From Vibrio agarivorans (GTDB lineage: Bacteria > Pseudomonadota > Gammaproteobacteria > Enterobacterales > Vibrionaceae), in the NCBI RefSeq assembly GCF_030409635.1, contig NZ_JAUFQF010000001.1, positions 558,001 to 622,000 of the forward strand: a stretch of DNA of 64,000 nucleotides, given 5' to 3'. The notes beneath the pieces were generated by a model, which worked only from the letters and a program-made list of their open reading frames with translations, was not told the DNA's origin and made no database searches. Made by a program: the position numbers and the translations under genes. This document shows, in pieces, positions 1,761 through 51,980 of this stretch (position 1 is its first letter; each line of letters starts with the position of its first letter).

Positions 1761-1860
1761 AATATCTCTTTTACTAGCGATTTTGACCAAGGAAAACGTT
1801 TGCGTGAGCATAATACGAGGATTTTTCGTGATGTAAAGCAAATCATTGTTGGTTATTTGT

Positions 1861-1888
1861 AAACAAAAACGCACCCATAAGGGTGCGC
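1861..1888 (-). terminator. Rho-independent terminator after the alcohol dehydrogenase
   Basis: CGCACCC (1870-1876) pairs with GGGTGCG (1881-1887) around an ATAA loop. On the minus strand a T-rich run follows, so it ends the yqhD-like transcript. It also argues against the long upstream start of fhs. Confidence 0.75.
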
Positions 1889-1915
1889 TGTTGAATCATT
1901 AATCAATAAGAAAAA

Positions 1916-3064
1916 CTAAGCAATCGCTTGCTCGAGGATTTCTTTACTGGTTTCTAGTGAGATTGCTTGGTTTTCACCGAGAGCCACCATGCCGTGATGC
2001 TCAAGTTGAGACAAGACTTTATCGACGGCAGCGACTTTTGTTGCGCCATGCTCTTTAAAGACAGTCGCAACTTCTAGGTGGTGGTAGAACAGTTCAATCG
2101 AATCGATTGTGCGTTCCGCCAAGTCTGCAGAGTCAGTAAGGCCAAATACATTTTTACCCATTTGCTCTAGCTTGCTACGTTTTGTTTCTATCTGGTTTCG
2201 TAGCAGCGACGGTTGTACGATCGCTAACGAGCGAGCATGGTCTACACCCCATAATGCGGTAAACTCATGACCAATCATGTGAGTTGCCCAATCTTGTGGA
2301 ACACCACTACCAATTAGACCATTCAACGCTTGGTTTGCTGTCCACATTAGGTTGGCACGCCATTCATCGCTGTCACGATCGGCATAGCCTTCACCCAAAC
2401 GTTTTAGATTGCGAAGTAGGGCTTCGGCATAACCTTCTTGCACCCAAGCATCTGTAGACGTCGTTAAGTACTGCTCACAAACATGAACCCAAGCGTCAAC
2501 AACACCGTTGATCAATTGACGTTCAGGAAGCGTCTTCATTGTATCTGGGTCAAGCACGGCGAATTTTGGTTGAACAAAAGGACTCAAGAACGGGAGTTTG
2601 TCTTGTGTTTCTGCTTTAGTAATGACAGCTCCAGAGTTCGATTCAGACCCCGTAGCAGGCAGTGTTAGAATAGCGCCGAGCGGCAACGCCTTATCCACCA
2701 CATACTTGCCAATCAAAATATCCCAACCGTCTCCGTCATAAAGTGCAGCAGCCGCAACATACTTAGAACCATCGATAACCGAACCACCACCAACAGCAAG
2801 GATGTAGTCGATACCTTCTTGTTTTATTTTCGCTACGGCTTTGTCTAGCGTTTCTTTAGTCGGGTTTGGCTCGACACCTGAAAACTCTGTCCAACGGTGA
2901 TCAGCCAGTGCGGTTTCGATTTGATCGTAAACGCCATTGCGCTTGATTGAACCACCCCCGTAGATCACTAAAACATGACGGTCTTGTGGGATGGATTGTG
3001 CTATCGCGGAAATCTGACCTTGCCCGAAGTGAATTTGTGTAGGGTTTGCATAGCTAAATTTCAT
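1916..3064 (-). CDS. yqhD: Iron-containing alcohol dehydrogenase, YqhD-like
   Basis: A 382-residue cytosolic oxidoreductase of the iron-containing (type III) alcohol dehydrogenase family. YqhD-type members reduce short-chain aldehydes with NADPH and help to detoxify them. The nucleotide-binding motif VGGGSVIDG lies near residue 95. The metal-site region shows VVDAWVHVCEQ and, later, GHEFTALWGVDHARS, with the Asp and His ligands of the family. AAGGAA precedes the ATG at suitable spacing. The gene has its own terminator and a 370-base upstream gap. The real substrate in this organism cannot be read from the sequence; butanol-dehydrogenase annotations for relatives are equally possible. Confidence 0.88.
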   Translation of the reverse strand: MKFSYANPTQIHFGQGQISAIAQSIPQDRHVLVIYGGGSIKRNGVYDQIETALADHRWTEFSGVEPNPTKETLDKAVAKIKQEGIDYILAVGGGSVIDGSKYVAAAALYDGDGWDILIGKYVVDKALPLGAILTLPATGSESNSGAVITKAETQDKLPFLSPFVQPKFAVLDPDTMKTLPERQLINGVVDAWVHVCEQYLTTSTDAWVQEGYAEALLRNLKRLGEGYADRDSDEWRANLMWTANQALNGLIGSGVPQDWATHMIGHEFTALWGVDHARSLAIVQPSLLRNQIETKRSKLEQMGKNVFGLTDSADLAERTIDSIELFYHHLEVATVFKEHGATKVAAVDKVLSQLEHHGMVALGENQAISLETSKEILEQAIA

Positions 3065-3434
3065 TGTTATTTCCTTTTGAACACTTTGTGTTCTGCTTAC
3101 ATGCAGCGGAACAAAGACGCTGTTCGTGCACGTTTTTCCAGTGACCTATTCAATATGTGAACGCTATCGGTAAAGATCAATCCATATCAGGACAAAATAT
3201 CGATCTTTTTCACTGGCTGTGAAGCGTTTAACTAATTTCACTACAGAAAATAAATTATCGATGCAAAATAAGCGTGTGCTTGTTACATCTAAACGACAAA
3301 CTGCTGCGAGTCACTGTTCACTTTGAGCAATCAAAATGGTACTCACTGATAGTTTTTTCTACTGTTTATTTTCATCGAACAACAAGTCATCGAACTGACT
3401 GTTAGGTGTTATTTCATAAACAAAGGACGAACAA
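3065..3434. other. Intergenic gap between yqhD-like gene and chitinase
   Basis: This 370-base gap sits between divergently transcribed genes, so it must hold two promoters. I see no convincing open reading frame, hairpin or recognisable operator. The only clear sites are AAGGA-type ribosome binding sites at each end (near 3070 for the minus gene and 3423 for the chitinase). Confidence 0.5.
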
Positions 3435-10781: not shown

Positions 10782-13700
10782 CTATGCCTGTTGCTCTGTT
10801 AATGCTGCTTGTGTCTCAATTTCTGTTTGTGGTTTATCTTTCACAAACAGTTTGTACAGTGCAGGCATCACCACGAGTGAAAGTACTGTCGCTGCAGCCA
10901 GACCACCGATGATGGTTGCTGCCATTTGGTCAAACAGTAGGTCACTTAACAATGGGATCATACCGAGTGCGGTAGTGAGTGCCCCCATTGAAATCGCCAT
11001 GGTTCTGTTGATGGTCGCTTCTTTGATAGCATCCGAGAACTCACGTCCGTTTTTACGCTCAAGCTCGATTTGATCCATCAAGACGATACCGTTTTTGATG
11101 ATCATACCAATCAAGGTGACAGCGCCAATCAAGGCCATAAATCCAAAGGGCTTATCAAAAGCAATCAGAGCAAACGTTGCGCCAATCGAAGCTAGCGGCA
11201 GTGTGCTAAGAATAAGTACCGGCTGAATAAAGCCATTAAACATCGCCACCAGAATCACCACCATAATGATCATTGCTTTCGGTAGTTGCTTTAGAATATC
11301 GGTTACCGCCTTGTGTTCGTCGTAATATTCACCACCCCATTCCACTGAGTAACCAGTTGGTAGTGCGATAGCCTCAATATCTGCTTTAATCGCATTACGC
11401 ACGTTTGCTGGCGTTGTTGAGCGTTGAATGCCCGCTTGAGCGGTGATAGTGCGCACACGATCGCGGCGCCAAATCATGCTTTCTTCGGCTACGAGCTCAA
11501 AACCATCAACCACTTGACCTAACGGCACCGTGTGCATACCAAGTAGAGAGTTCACTGGCAACGTCTCTAACGAGTCCATTGCATTACCCGGGCTCGTCAG
11601 TTTGATCGGGATAAGCTCATCATTGAGGTTCATTTGTCCAAGTGGCATGCCATCAGATGAACGTTTCATCGCAAATGCAATATCCGCACGGTTAATGCCT
11701 GCTTGACGTGCTTTCTCTTGGTTAATGATTGGTACTAGTGTATTACTCTGTTGACGCCAGTCATCTCTTACATACTTAGCATCTGGGTGAGATGCCATGA
11801 TCGCTTTTGCTTGATCAGCTAGCTTATGTAGCACGACTGGATCTGGGCCAGAGAAACGCGCTTCAACAGAGAACTTGTCAGATGTCGCCAATTTTAGTGC
11901 TCTGAAGCGGGGCTCTGCATTTGGGAACTCGCTGGCGAGCCATTGATCTCCACGGTTGATGAGCGATGAGATAGCGTAAAAATCCGTTGTGTTTACCAAT
12001 ATCTGACCATACGCAGGGTCTAATGGCTCTGGCTCAACCGTCACAGAAAATCGTGGGACACTTGCGCCGACAGCGGTAGAGATGCTTTCTACTTCTGGCT
12101 GCGCCAGTAACCACTCTTCGATTCTGCGCATGTCAGCTGACGTTTGTTCAATCTTGGCACCATTTGGCAACCAATAATCTAAGAACACAATTGGGCGGTC
12201 AGATTGCGGAATAAAGTTCACCGCAACATAAGGGACAGCAAAGACAGTTGCCACGATCAGTGGTAACACACCGCTCAGAGCTTTTTTCGGATTGTCGACT
12301 GTCCAATGAATGAAGCGATGGAATAGATTCGGTTTCGCGTCAGCATCCACTTTTGTTGGTTTGATAAACAGCCAACACATTAGGGCAGTGAAAGTCATTG
12401 CCACAAACCATGACAATAGTAGCGAAGCCGCGACAATATAGAACACAGAGTTAGCAAATTCAGCTGCATCAGTTTGCGAGAATACGACTGGACTAGAACC
12501 CATAATCGCAATCACCGTTGCGCCAAGAAGGGGCACTGCGGTTTCCTTAACTGAATCTATCGCTGCTTGAGTGCGCTCAATACCTTTGTTCATCTTCGAG
12601 ATCATCATATCCGTAATCACGATAGCGTTATCTACCAGCATGCCCAGTGCCAGAATAAACGTACCTAGTGAAACACGGTGTAAGTCAATCTCATTGATAT
12701 TCATATAGATAAGAGTCAATAAGATGGTAAGCAATAAACTGCTGCCGACAATCGTAGCGCTCTTGAAACCCATGAAGATAAGTAGCACGACAAATACAAT
12801 CGCGACACTCTCTAGCAAGTTCATGACGAAATCATCAATTGATTTCACCACTTCTTCCGGTTGGTAAGCAACCGTAGAAACCTCGACACCCATCGGCAGC
12901 TCTTGCTCATACTGGTCGATGATATGACGAATTGTGTCACCTAAAGAAACAACGTTGATACCACTAACCGGACTGACAGCAAGCGTGACCGCAGGCTCAC
13001 CGTTAAAACGGTTCTCTGTAAGCGCTGGCTTTTGGTAATCCATCGTGACGTGCGCAATGTCTCCAAGGCGCACTAGGCCAGTACCAAGTTCGCTGATACC
13101 GCTTTTGATCACAAGGTTATTGATGTCTTCAAGGTTCTTGAACTCGCTACTTTGCGCTATGCGGATACGTTGTTCACCCACATCAAACTTGCCCGCCTCA
13201 AACGTCATGCTTTGGGTGCGTAATTGGTTCCATACTTGCGAAATAGACAAACCATATTGAGTCAGTCTTTCGTCAGGTACCTCAATATTCACCACGCGGG
13301 GTTGAACACCGTGTAGCTCGATTTTCTTAATCCCATCAACGGTTTTAATGCGTCGTTGTAACTCTTCCGCATAGCGGCGAAGCTCCTCCGGGGTTGCATC
13401 GGTACTATGAATAGAAAAAAGCATACCGTAGACTTCAGAGAACTCATCTTGGATGATATTCAACTGTGCTGTCGCTGGAAGTTGCAGGGCAACATCGTTA
13501 ACTTTTCTGCGCAGTAAGTCCCACTGCTGTGGTAGCTCTTTAGAACTTAAACTCTCTTTAAGATCAACAAACACCATCGATAGACCGGGCTTAGACAGGG
13601 AGCGCAGTCGATTTAGCTCGCCCATTTCTTGCAGCTTGGTTTCAATGGTATCTGTTACTTGAAATTCAACTTCTTCGGCAGACGCGCCAGGATAAAGCGT

Positions 13701-36555: not shown

Positions 36556-36735
36556 ATGGACATCTGGATGCGTTATGCGCGAGCAATTTTTGCTATCTAT
36601 GTGATCCTAATGGGGTCAGCCCTCACCATCATGTTAAGTGATGATGAAAGCAATGAAGCTCGTATCGAGTTGCCATCTCAAACTGAAAACTATGTCGTTC
36701 GTGACACCAATGGCTATATTGTTCACGCAAACTAG
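36556..36735 (+). CDS. 59-residue single-pass membrane protein
   Basis: A small unrecognised protein. The chosen ATG at 36556 has AAGG six bases upstream. Residues about 6-27 (RYARAIFAIYVILMGSALTI) form one membrane helix preceded by positive charge. The tail DDESNEARIELPSQTENY is acidic and polar and ends VRDTNGYIVHAN, which suggests an N-in, C-out topology with a periplasmic tail. It lies in a gene-poor stretch and converges with the qrr small RNA gene. It could be a stress or regulatory small membrane protein; no family is known to me. Confidence 0.6.
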   Translation: MDIWMRYARAIFAIYVILMGSALTIMLSDDESNEARIELPSQTENYVVRDTNGYIVHAN

Positions 36736-36789
36736 TGGCTGAAGTCCCAAGAAAGCACAGGGCCGTGCTGATTCACATCGTACAGAAAA

Positions 36790-36895
36790 GAAAAAACCAG
36801 CCACGAAAGGTTTGTGGCTGGGACTTATAAGTGTGAACAATGATATTCACAAACAACGTCAGTTGGCTAGGTGACCCTCGGCTTATTAAGGGTCA
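36790..36895 (-). ncRNA. qrr: Qrr quorum-regulatory small RNA
   Basis: An Hfq-dependent small RNA of about 106 nucleotides that tunes quorum-sensing regulators by base pairing. Read on the minus strand it begins TGACCCTTAATAAGCCGAGG and continues with the family-wide core TCACCTAGCCAACTGACG followed by TTGTTTGTGAA; other vibrios that I recall have GTTGTTAGTGAA here. It ends with a perfect CCAGCCAC/GTGGCTGG hairpin and a run of T residues. The start at 36895 is set by the sigma-54 promoter, 12 bases away from its -12 element. Several qrr copies are usual in vibrios; which one this is cannot be told. LuxO with sigma-54 should activate it at low cell density. Confidence 0.93.
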
Positions 36896-36905
36896 GTTAT
36901 GTGAC

Positions 36906-36921
36906 TGCACGTAGTGTGCCA
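36906..36921 (-). promoter_or_regulatory. Sigma-54 promoter of qrr
   Basis: On the minus strand the sequence is TGGCACACTACGTGCA, which fits the -24/-12 consensus TGGCAC-N5-TTGCA with one mismatch. Spacing to the Qrr 5' end is exactly as expected. Confidence 0.85.
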
Positions 36922-37048: not shown

Positions 37049-37061
37049 TCGCAAAATGCAA
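37049..37061. promoter_or_regulatory. LuxO-like binding site upstream of qrr
   Basis: On the minus strand this is TTGCATTTTGCGA, one mismatch from the recalled LuxO motif TTGCA-N3-TGCAA. It lies about 155 bases upstream of the qrr start, a suitable distance for a sigma-54 enhancer. Confidence 0.5.
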
Positions 37062-37396: not shown

Positions 37397-37708
37397 TTAA
37401 CCGCCGGCTAATTTAACTTTCATGCCTTTCTTTTCAAGGTGAGCTTTAATCTTGTCGCGGTTGTCGCCCTGGATTTCAATGTTGCCATCTTTAATTGCGC
37501 CACCACAGCCACACACTTTTTTAAGCTCTGCAGCTAGAAGCTTGAGTGGCGCATCATCAAGGTCTAAGCCTGTTACGATGCACACGCCTTTGCCTTTACG
37601 GCCTTTTGTTTCTCGTTGAATTCTTACAACGCCATCACCTTTAGGACGCTCTACTTTTTTTTCTTCTGGTTTAATACGGCCAGTTTCCGTTGAATACACT
37701 AGAGTCAT
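37397..37708 (-). CDS. yciH: SUI1/eIF1-family translation factor YciH
   Basis: A 103-residue homologue of eukaryotic eIF1 that in E. coli acts on initiation fidelity and inhibits translation of some messages under stress. The SUI1 core is visible in VCIVTGLDLDDAPLKLLAAE, then LKKVCGCGGAIKDGNIEIQG and DNRDKIKAHLEKKGMKVKLAGG. It starts two bases after the DUF3319-like gene stop, so the two form an operon. It lies just upstream, on the same strand, of qrr but a strong terminator separates them. Confidence 0.93.
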   Translation of the reverse strand: MTLVYSTETGRIKPEEKKVERPKGDGVVRIQRETKGRKGKGVCIVTGLDLDDAPLKLLAAELKKVCGCGGAIKDGNIEIQGDNRDKIKAHLEKKGMKVKLAGG

Positions 37709-47822: not shown

Positions 47823-48011
47823 TTAACGGTATAAACCGATATCTTTTTGCATGTGGCTAGACATGTCGCTCGAGTAGTAAGTACGAGGCGTATTGTCTAC
47901 AAACAAAATATCAAGTAAGTGTGCAATCAATCCTTTGAAGCTAACCGAGTAGGTTTTTTTGTCCATAGAGGTTGGTACTACGATAGTGTCGATGTGCATT
48001 GCCTGTGCCAT
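47823..48011 (-). CDS. 62-residue protein, function unknown
   Basis: I do not recognise this small protein. The start at 48011 follows a GAGAGA site at good distance; the frame extends 14 codons further without one. The sequence starts MAQAMHIDTIVVPTSMDKKT and ends SHMQKDIGLYR. The closing DIGLYR recalls the C-terminus of DUF1127 proteins (usually DIGLTR-like), but the rest lacks the DUF1127 pattern of basic residues. A clean terminator follows and a 349-base gap precedes it, which supports a real gene. Confidence 0.6.
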   Translation of the reverse strand: MAQAMHIDTIVVPTSMDKKTYSVSFKGLIAHLLDILFVDNTPRTYYSSDMSSHMQKDIGLYR

Positions 48012-50237: not shown

Positions 50238-50311
50238 TGGAGGCGCGTCCCGGAGTCGAACCGAGGTCCACGGATTTGCAATCCGCTGCATAGCCACTCT
50301 GCCAACACGCC
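50238..50311 (-). tRNA. tRNA-Cys (GCA)
   Basis: A 74-base gene with a seven-pair acceptor stem GGCGTGT/ACGCGCC and encoded CCA. The anticodon loop TTGCAAA gives GCA. It is the last gene of the minus-strand array. Sequence is identical to the other two Cys copies in this window. Confidence 0.97.
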
Positions 50312-50345
50312 TTTGTGATTAACATGAGTTAATACGAATTGTTGA

Positions 50346-50432
50346 TGGTGCCCCGGGCCGGACTTGAACCGGCACAACGCGAACGTCGAGGGATTTTAAA
50401 TCCCTTGTGTCTACCAATTCCACCACCAGGGC
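50346..50432 (-). tRNA. tRNA-Leu (UAA)
   Basis: An 87-base class II tRNA with a long variable arm and encoded CCA. The loop TTTAAAA gives anticodon UAA. It is 34 bases upstream of the Cys gene in transcription order. Confidence 0.97.
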
Positions 50433-50598
50433 AACGCAAAACTTGTTTGCGATGGTTAACACCATCTTTGATACCGACCTTTAATGAGTCACTATCATAA
50501 AACTTGTGGCGACACTTTTGATTCTCTTGATATACAAAAGAAGGTGTCTCCTGAACCTGAATAAGGTTTCACTATATCAACTGAATCTCAGTTGAAAA

Positions 50599-50672
50599 TG
50601 GAGGCGCGTCCCGGAGTCGAACCGAGGTCCACGGATTTGCAATCCGCTGCATAGCCACTCTGCCAACACGCC
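50599..50672 (-). tRNA. tRNA-Cys (GCA)
   Basis: Second of three identical Cys genes. With the Leu gene it repeats the Cys-Leu unit, and part of the spacer is also repeated, pointing to a tandem duplication of about 360 bases. Confidence 0.97.
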
Positions 50673-50705
50673 TTCGTGATTAACTTGAGCTAATCAAATT
50701 GTTGA

Positions 50706-50792
50706 TGGTGCCCCGGGCCGGACTTGAACCGGCACAACGCGAACGTCGAGGGATTTTAAATCCCTTGTGTCTACCAATTCCACCACCAGGGC
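50706..50792 (-). tRNA. tRNA-Leu (UAA)
   Basis: Identical to the Leu copy at 50346-50432, with encoded CCA. It is the first gene of the four-tRNA operon. Confidence 0.97.
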
Positions 50793-51906: not shown

Positions 51907-51980
51907 TGGAGGCGCGTCCCGGAGTCGAACCGAGGTCCACGGATTTGCAATCCGCTGCATAGCCACTCTGCCAACACGCC
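51907..51980 (-). tRNA. tRNA-Cys (GCA), separate copy
   Basis: Third identical Cys gene, with CCA encoded. It is cut off from the array by the lipase gene and has its own promoter. Confidence 0.97.

Follow-up and report, generated by a model that had tools for sequence, protein, structure and literature searches.

Qrr RNAs are the well-known small RNAs that vibrios use for counting neighbours. The locus described here raises the question whether a Qrr gene that lies amid metabolic and envelope genes is a genuine and working member of this family, and what a single changed base beside its conserved core means. A preliminary description of the 64,000 nucleotides analysed (the window) had proposed such a gene on the minus strand, together with a perfect terminator hairpin and a -24/-12 promoter in exact register.

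Identity and parts of the Qrr gene

Rfam cmscan of the whole 64-kb window, the covariance-model check that had been suggested, returned a single Qrr match over the proposed interval, at 36787-36895 on the minus strand (RF00378, 97.1 bits, E = 2.6e-17). The match covers model positions 1-108 of 108 and its score stands against a gathering score of 50 bits for RF00378, so that the proposed gene is borne out. We refer to it as QrrW. It is made up of the following parts:

36787-36895, minus strand: Qrr small RNA (QrrW), ~105 nt, full-length match to RF00378 at 97.1 bits
36895, minus strand: predicted transcription start, from the Rfam model and the promoter
36872-36895, minus strand: first stem-loop, from the predicted fold
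36880-36884, minus strand: putative aphA pairing region I, AAGCC, inside the first stem-loop, from the pairing script
36852-36873, minus strand: conserved core CACCTAGCCAACTGACGTTGTT (region II, luxR and luxO pairing), identical to the family core
36787-36821, minus strand: intrinsic terminator with an 8-bp perfect stem and a T-rich tail, from sequence and fold

Direct reading of the strand places a second stem-loop after the core. In the terminator, 36797-36804 pairs with 36814-36821 over 8 bp with no mismatch, followed by TTTTTTCTTT, and the hairpin is as perfect as had been claimed. All the sequence features examined as marks of a member of RF00378 were found in QrrW, namely the score, the exact core, region I, the promoter, the terminator and a LuxO-type site with one mismatch. 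The mark of qrr1, a position adjacent to and divergent from luxO, is absent from QrrW; luxO adjoins another copy of this genome, at C4:74103. Judged by its sequence, QrrW is an ordinary Qrr family member at an additional locus. Given the score and E-value of the match and the promoter and upstream site, which are independent of it, it is hardly conceivable that the resemblance arose by chance or that the interval encodes some other, related RNA.

Promoter and LuxO-type upstream site

Two elements upstream of QrrW bear on its control:

36906-36921, minus strand: -24/-12 sigma-54-type promoter TGGCACACTACGTGCA (TGGCAC-N6-TGCA)
37049-37061, minus strand: LuxO-type upstream activating site TTGCATTTTGCGA, at -166 to -154, with one mismatch to TTGCAW3TGCAA

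Relative to a start at 36895 the promoter has GG at -25/-24 and GC at -13/-12, which confirms the register given in the preliminary description. The window contains three matches to the pattern TGGCACN6TGCW where 0.47 would be expected, and three or more matches were reached in 0 of 100 shuffles. The two further sigma-54-like matches to this pattern lie at 47995-48010 and 12637-12652, both on the minus strand.

The upstream site TTGCATTTTGCGA had been absent from the earlier account. Its consensus, TTGCAW3TGCAA, is that given for LuxO in PMC11443567 and PMC10162802. Within the 230-base stretch upstream of QrrW, an equally good site arose in 0 of 2000 mononucleotide shuffles. Across the whole 64 kb there are two sites this good, against 0.92 expected, and 21 of 100 shuffles reach two. 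Since this number is not unusual, the weight of the site rests on its position.

A sigma-54-independent Qrr2 has reportedly been found in V. parahaemolyticus, and QrrW might likewise be partly independent of sigma-54, or be driven by another enhancer-binding protein, e.g., SypG. In V. fischeri, SypG activates qrr1 via sites that overlap the LuxO sites (PMC10162802). The upstream site of QrrW is one base from the LuxO consensus, which argues against this arrangement, and we regard it as improbable.

Other Qrr copies and partner genes in the genome

The genome (4.9 Mb, 4 contigs) contains four matches to RF00378: C2:142964 (111.9 bits), QrrW (97.1), C4:74103 (89.4) and C4:2700683 (53.8). The C4:74103 copy is adjoined by luxO and luxU, named by eye, which identifies it as the canonical qrr1. 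Pfam searches followed by naming by eye revealed a HapR/LuxR-type TetR frame and an AphA-type PadR frame, and Pfam also detected Hfq and a sigma-54 DNA-binding domain.

The copy at C4:2700683-2700778 on the plus strand (L101 6001-6096) has GTTGTTTAAGAACC after the core in place of GTTGTTAGTGAAC. This seed-altered Qrr scores 53.8 bits here, and its counterpart in a same-genus relative, G007 (L104), scores 44.5 bits, below cut-off. From CACCTAG on, the two species agree over at least 50 bases; they differ in the terminator loop and in the 5' portion of the first stem. Its LuxO-type sites have one mismatch each in this genome and 0 and 1 in G007, and the -12 element reads TGT, not TGC, in both species.

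Predicted pairing with luxR, aphA and luxO

Whole-leader duplex energies of QrrW were compared with 200 shuffles. Those for luxR (z = -0.8) and luxO (z = -0.7) were not clearly better than shuffles; the one for aphA (z = -3.6) was. Because such full-length duplexes are long and loose, and uninformative for luxR and luxO, pairing was assessed with a local complementarity script, run without a shuffle control on the natural paralogue sequences of this genome.

In this script, CCTAGCC-AACTGACGTTG of all four paralogues pairs with luxR at -27 to -9, and the pairing extends loosely past the variant base to -41 in QrrW and in the C2 copy. For aphA, QrrW scored highest, with 37.7 over regions I and II, followed by the C2 copy (31.0), qrr1 (25.2) and the C4:2700683 copy (22.6). 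The pairing of regions I and II with the aphA leader falls inside -180 to -114. The script gave no region I pairing with aphA for qrr1 or the C4:2700683 copy, which for qrr1 agrees with PMC3262071. The stretch ACCTAGCC pairs with luxO at -9 to -2 in all four copies; in the C4:2700683 copy, the top-scoring luxO alignment lies in another register.

From its sequence features, QrrW is very probably a functional extra Qrr gene, driven by LuxO and sigma-54 and acting in trans on luxR and aphA. By homology, LuxO-P and sigma-54 would switch it on at low cell density. Together with Hfq, the RNA would then repress luxR, on which CCTAGCC-AACTGACGTTG is predicted to cover the region just before the start codon, activate aphA through pairing of regions I and II with its leader, and repress luxO through ACCTAGCC as a feedback. 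QrrW would in this way add to the dose of the other Qrr copies.

The base after the core

The preliminary description had noted a one-base difference from the family core and placed it inside the target-pairing region:

36851, minus strand: variant base T (A in the family), from the comparison of 121 Qrr copies

The difference itself is real; its placement stands only in part. The base directly follows the contiguous luxR block and lies outside aphA regions I and II, and is included only in the looser extensions of the top QrrW alignments with luxR, aphA and luxO. Among the 121 copies compared, from this genome and 34 same-genus relatives (one of them, the G007 copy of 44.5 bits, below cut-off), the base after GTTGTT is A in 118. 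The three copies with T are QrrW and the seed-altered Qrrs of the same genome and of G007. A copy with C, G or T at this position was present in 7 of 227 same-genus genomes.

A search for the T form in one-per-species genomes recovered the exact 24-base core with T in 60 contigs elsewhere, from Photobacterium (36), Enterovibrio (9), Salinivibrio (6), Grimontia (4), Veronia (2), Vibrio (2) and Thaumasiovibrio (1). In 57 of these contigs a luxO match lies no more than 800 bases from the Qrr, which is divergent from it; in the other three (L052, L077 and L086) no luxO match was found and the Qrr lies near the edge of the fetched piece. Retargeting by the T was considered as the main reading and was rejected because the base falls outside the contiguous luxR, aphA and luxO blocks, although the extended top alignments with luxR, aphA and luxO all include it, which speaks against this rejection. 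Lying outside the contiguous blocks, the variant base is probably tolerated rather than a retargeting change.

Distribution and neighbourhood of the locus

Qrr was found in 35 of the 61 genomes searched, this one included; all 35 belong to the same genus, of which 37 genomes were searched. When copies with at least two neighbouring genes in common were grouped, 103 of the 121 copies fell into four widespread loci (28, 27, 27 and 21 copies). The remainder consists of a 3-copy group (QrrW and two in G007), a 2-copy group (C4:2700683 and its G007 counterpart) and 13 others. Hence two of the four copies of this genome are at widespread qrr loci and the other two at loci common, in this sample, only to this genome and G007, the single other genome of the 35 Qrr-bearing ones to have the QrrW locus. 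A perfect LuxO-type site accompanies 21/28 copies at locus A, 26/27 at qrr1, 22/27 at B and 12/21 at C; QrrW has a single, imperfect one. The GG-N10-GC count for qrr1 (16/27) comes from a search window set for a longer first stem, and its misses carry no weight. QrrW has a mean identity of 0.69 to locus A, 0.67 to B and 0.68 to C, values so close that the parent locus cannot be told.

The genes on either side of QrrW are:

36556-36735, plus strand: 59-aa open frame converging on QrrW, listed as context only
37397-37708, minus strand: yciH (SUI1 family), the next gene upstream of QrrW, NCBIfam PRK09019.1 at 180.7 bits, used as syntenic anchor

Of 227 same-genus genomes, this one and G007 are the two that have the 59-aa frame. 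A search of 31 genomes for YciH succeeded in 28; 20 loci were extracted and 18 same-genus loci, of 3.3 kb each, compared. DUF3319 adjoins yciH in 15 of these 18, and the exact Qrr core occurs within the 3.3-kb piece only in this genome. The interval in G007 is longer, and its Qrr lies outside the piece. In L263, a 12-mer of the core with one mismatch is situated on the DUF3319 side of yciH, which is the opposite side, and is absent from the Rfam matches. In G001 (L260, ~1812-3170), yciH and a TraF_2-like gene are separated by 1358 bases with no Qrr core. As this interval holds a 163-aa frame in place of Qrr and the 59-aa frame, the cargo of the interval varies.

The equivalent locus in G007 contains two Qrr copies (L102 5001-5108 and 5276-5378, both on the minus strand), as well as transposase-like and porin-like frames named by eye. 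In the orthologue of QrrW the core has a C-to-T change, the -24 element reads TTGGTAT, not TTGGCAC, and a search of 260 nt found no upstream site with up to three mismatches. The second copy has no recognisable -24/-12. Because the orthologue looks impaired and its twin promoterless, the locus may be under relaxed selection, and QrrW could be a decaying duplicate that is weakly or not expressed, a reading to which its uncommon core base and imperfect upstream site would also conform. We consider this unlikely, as the promoter, spacing, stems, regions I and II and terminator of QrrW are all intact and the changed base occurs in the luxO-linked qrr1 of other genera. As a functional gene, QrrW would be a lineage-specific copy dating from the ancestor that this species shares with the one sampled relative.

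Qrr RNAs act in trans, and the position of QrrW among metabolic and envelope genes therefore means little. Such action is described in PMC3262071. Nothing suggests that QrrW controls neighbouring genes, and family searches of these neighbours revealed no quorum-sensing link. Repeated tRNA genes are found elsewhere in the window, at 50241-50792 and 51910-51980 on the minus strand, with two identical-scoring matches of 84 bases and three of 71 bases.

Qrr genes on plasmids and in phages

Qrr matches of 93.9-94.6 bits were observed on three plasmids, V. vulnificus pFORC54, V. navarrensis pVN20-VB00237, which is typed conjugative, and a V. cidicii plasmid (L242, L244 and L245; NZ_CP019123, NZ_CP065219 and CP035920). 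In both annotated records the Qrr precedes umuD by ~100 bases; the record of the V. cidicii plasmid has no annotation. The plasmid Qrrs have LuxO-type sites with one mismatch, and their -13/-12 reads GA, not GC. Our literature search yielded no report of a plasmid-encoded qrr beside umuD.

The phage collection, searched with the window query, gave no match. Four IMG/VR contigs (L094-L097) carry a Qrr at 62.2-74.5 bits. Upstream of these, no LuxO-type site with up to two mismatches was found and no -24/-12 was seen by eye. L097 looks temperate, with a CI-like repressor, an integrase, terminases, a portal protein and an endolysin/spanin cassette. Its Qrr is flanked on one side by a phrog_536 regulator and then an unassigned 112-aa frame, and on the other by the endolysin.

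A conserved promoter-like block ending TAACGTGGTTTTANTGCG precedes the phage Qrr segment. It was obtained from 12 sources, comprising nine IMG/VR contigs, Aliivibrio phage vB_Alvi_H905 (PP986400) and two Vibrio genomes, G086 and G020 (L094-L097, L272, L273 and L275-L280; L274 and L095 are one contig, and L275 does not differ from L279 over the stretch shown). A search of 227 genomes gave five genomes with a match at up to one mismatch, two of them exact (G086 and G020), and a reversed control pattern matched in four genomes. The one-mismatch matches L281-L283 were dropped, being without the rest of the block.

The seed CCTAGCCA is present in the segment after the block in 11 of the 12 sources, L276 having none, and takes the form CCTAGCCAACT in nine, CCTAGCCAGCT in L273 and CCTAGCCAATA in L278. 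In the seed-bearing phage segments it is followed by an apparent intrinsic terminator, with lysis genes next. Five of the sources have an Rfam Qrr above cut-off (L094-L097 and L278), and the vB_Alvi_H905 segment reaches 43 bits, below cut-off; L273, L275, L277, L279 and L280 gave no Rfam Qrr match at E 0.05. On a separate viral contig (L250 6133-6149, minus strand; IMG/VR 3300014042_000002), TAGCCAACTGACGTTGTTTAAG is directly followed by a terminator hairpin. No first stem-loop was seen there and no Rfam Qrr match was obtained at E 0.1, and the element is a candidate minimal Qrr-like RNA.

The phage segment occupies a position that we take to resemble that of the lambda pR'-tR' leader. It is presumably transcribed, and it is possibly a LuxO-independent phage Qrr. 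If the RNA is made, temperate vibrio phages with a Qrr or its seed could override the cell-density switch of the host without LuxO. No report of a phage-encoded Qrr emerged from our literature search, which included PMC11315295 and had most subscription papers outside its scope. A phage family with a Qrr or seed ahead of its lysis genes is more novel than the Qrr of the window, and this by-catch matters more.

It is conceivable that extra Qrr genes such as QrrW are spread by mobile elements and not by old duplication alone, on plasmids by umuD and in temperate phages before the lysis genes, and that QrrW, which lies in an interval of variable cargo, descends from such a delivery. We regard this as doubtful.

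Comparison with known Qrr systems

Set beside other vibrios, QrrW, the probable product of a lineage-specific copying event, represents an additional Qrr locus and shows that Qrr sets turn over. Region I is absent from qrr1-type RNAs and present in some other copies, a contrast that is relevant to the question why vibrios keep several near-identical Qrrs.

The T core of QrrW is shared by Qrrs of Photobacterium, Enterovibrio, Grimontia, Salinivibrio, Veronia and Thaumasiovibrio (58 of the 60 contigs). In those sister genera the T-core Qrrs are the luxO-linked qrr1, whereas QrrW is not near luxO. In length, stem-loop layout, core and terminator, QrrW is like Qrr2-Qrr5 of Vibrio harveyi and Qrr2-4 of V. 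cholerae (RF00378). As in the Qrr2-5 type, aphA region I lies in the first stem, and a -24/-12 promoter and a LuxO-type site are present (PMC3262071 and PMC11443567). QrrW differs in being at none of the four widespread loci of the sample, which are defined here by neighbouring genes and independently of the names qrr2-5, and in having T, not A, after GTTGTT. Qrr5 of V. harveyi, V. parahaemolyticus and V. vulnificus is an extra Qrr in only some vibrios (PMC3262071), and in V. parahaemolyticus lies on chromosome 1 at 1,728,021-1,728,129 (PMC9610228). QrrW resembles Qrr5 as an extra Qrr of restricted distribution.
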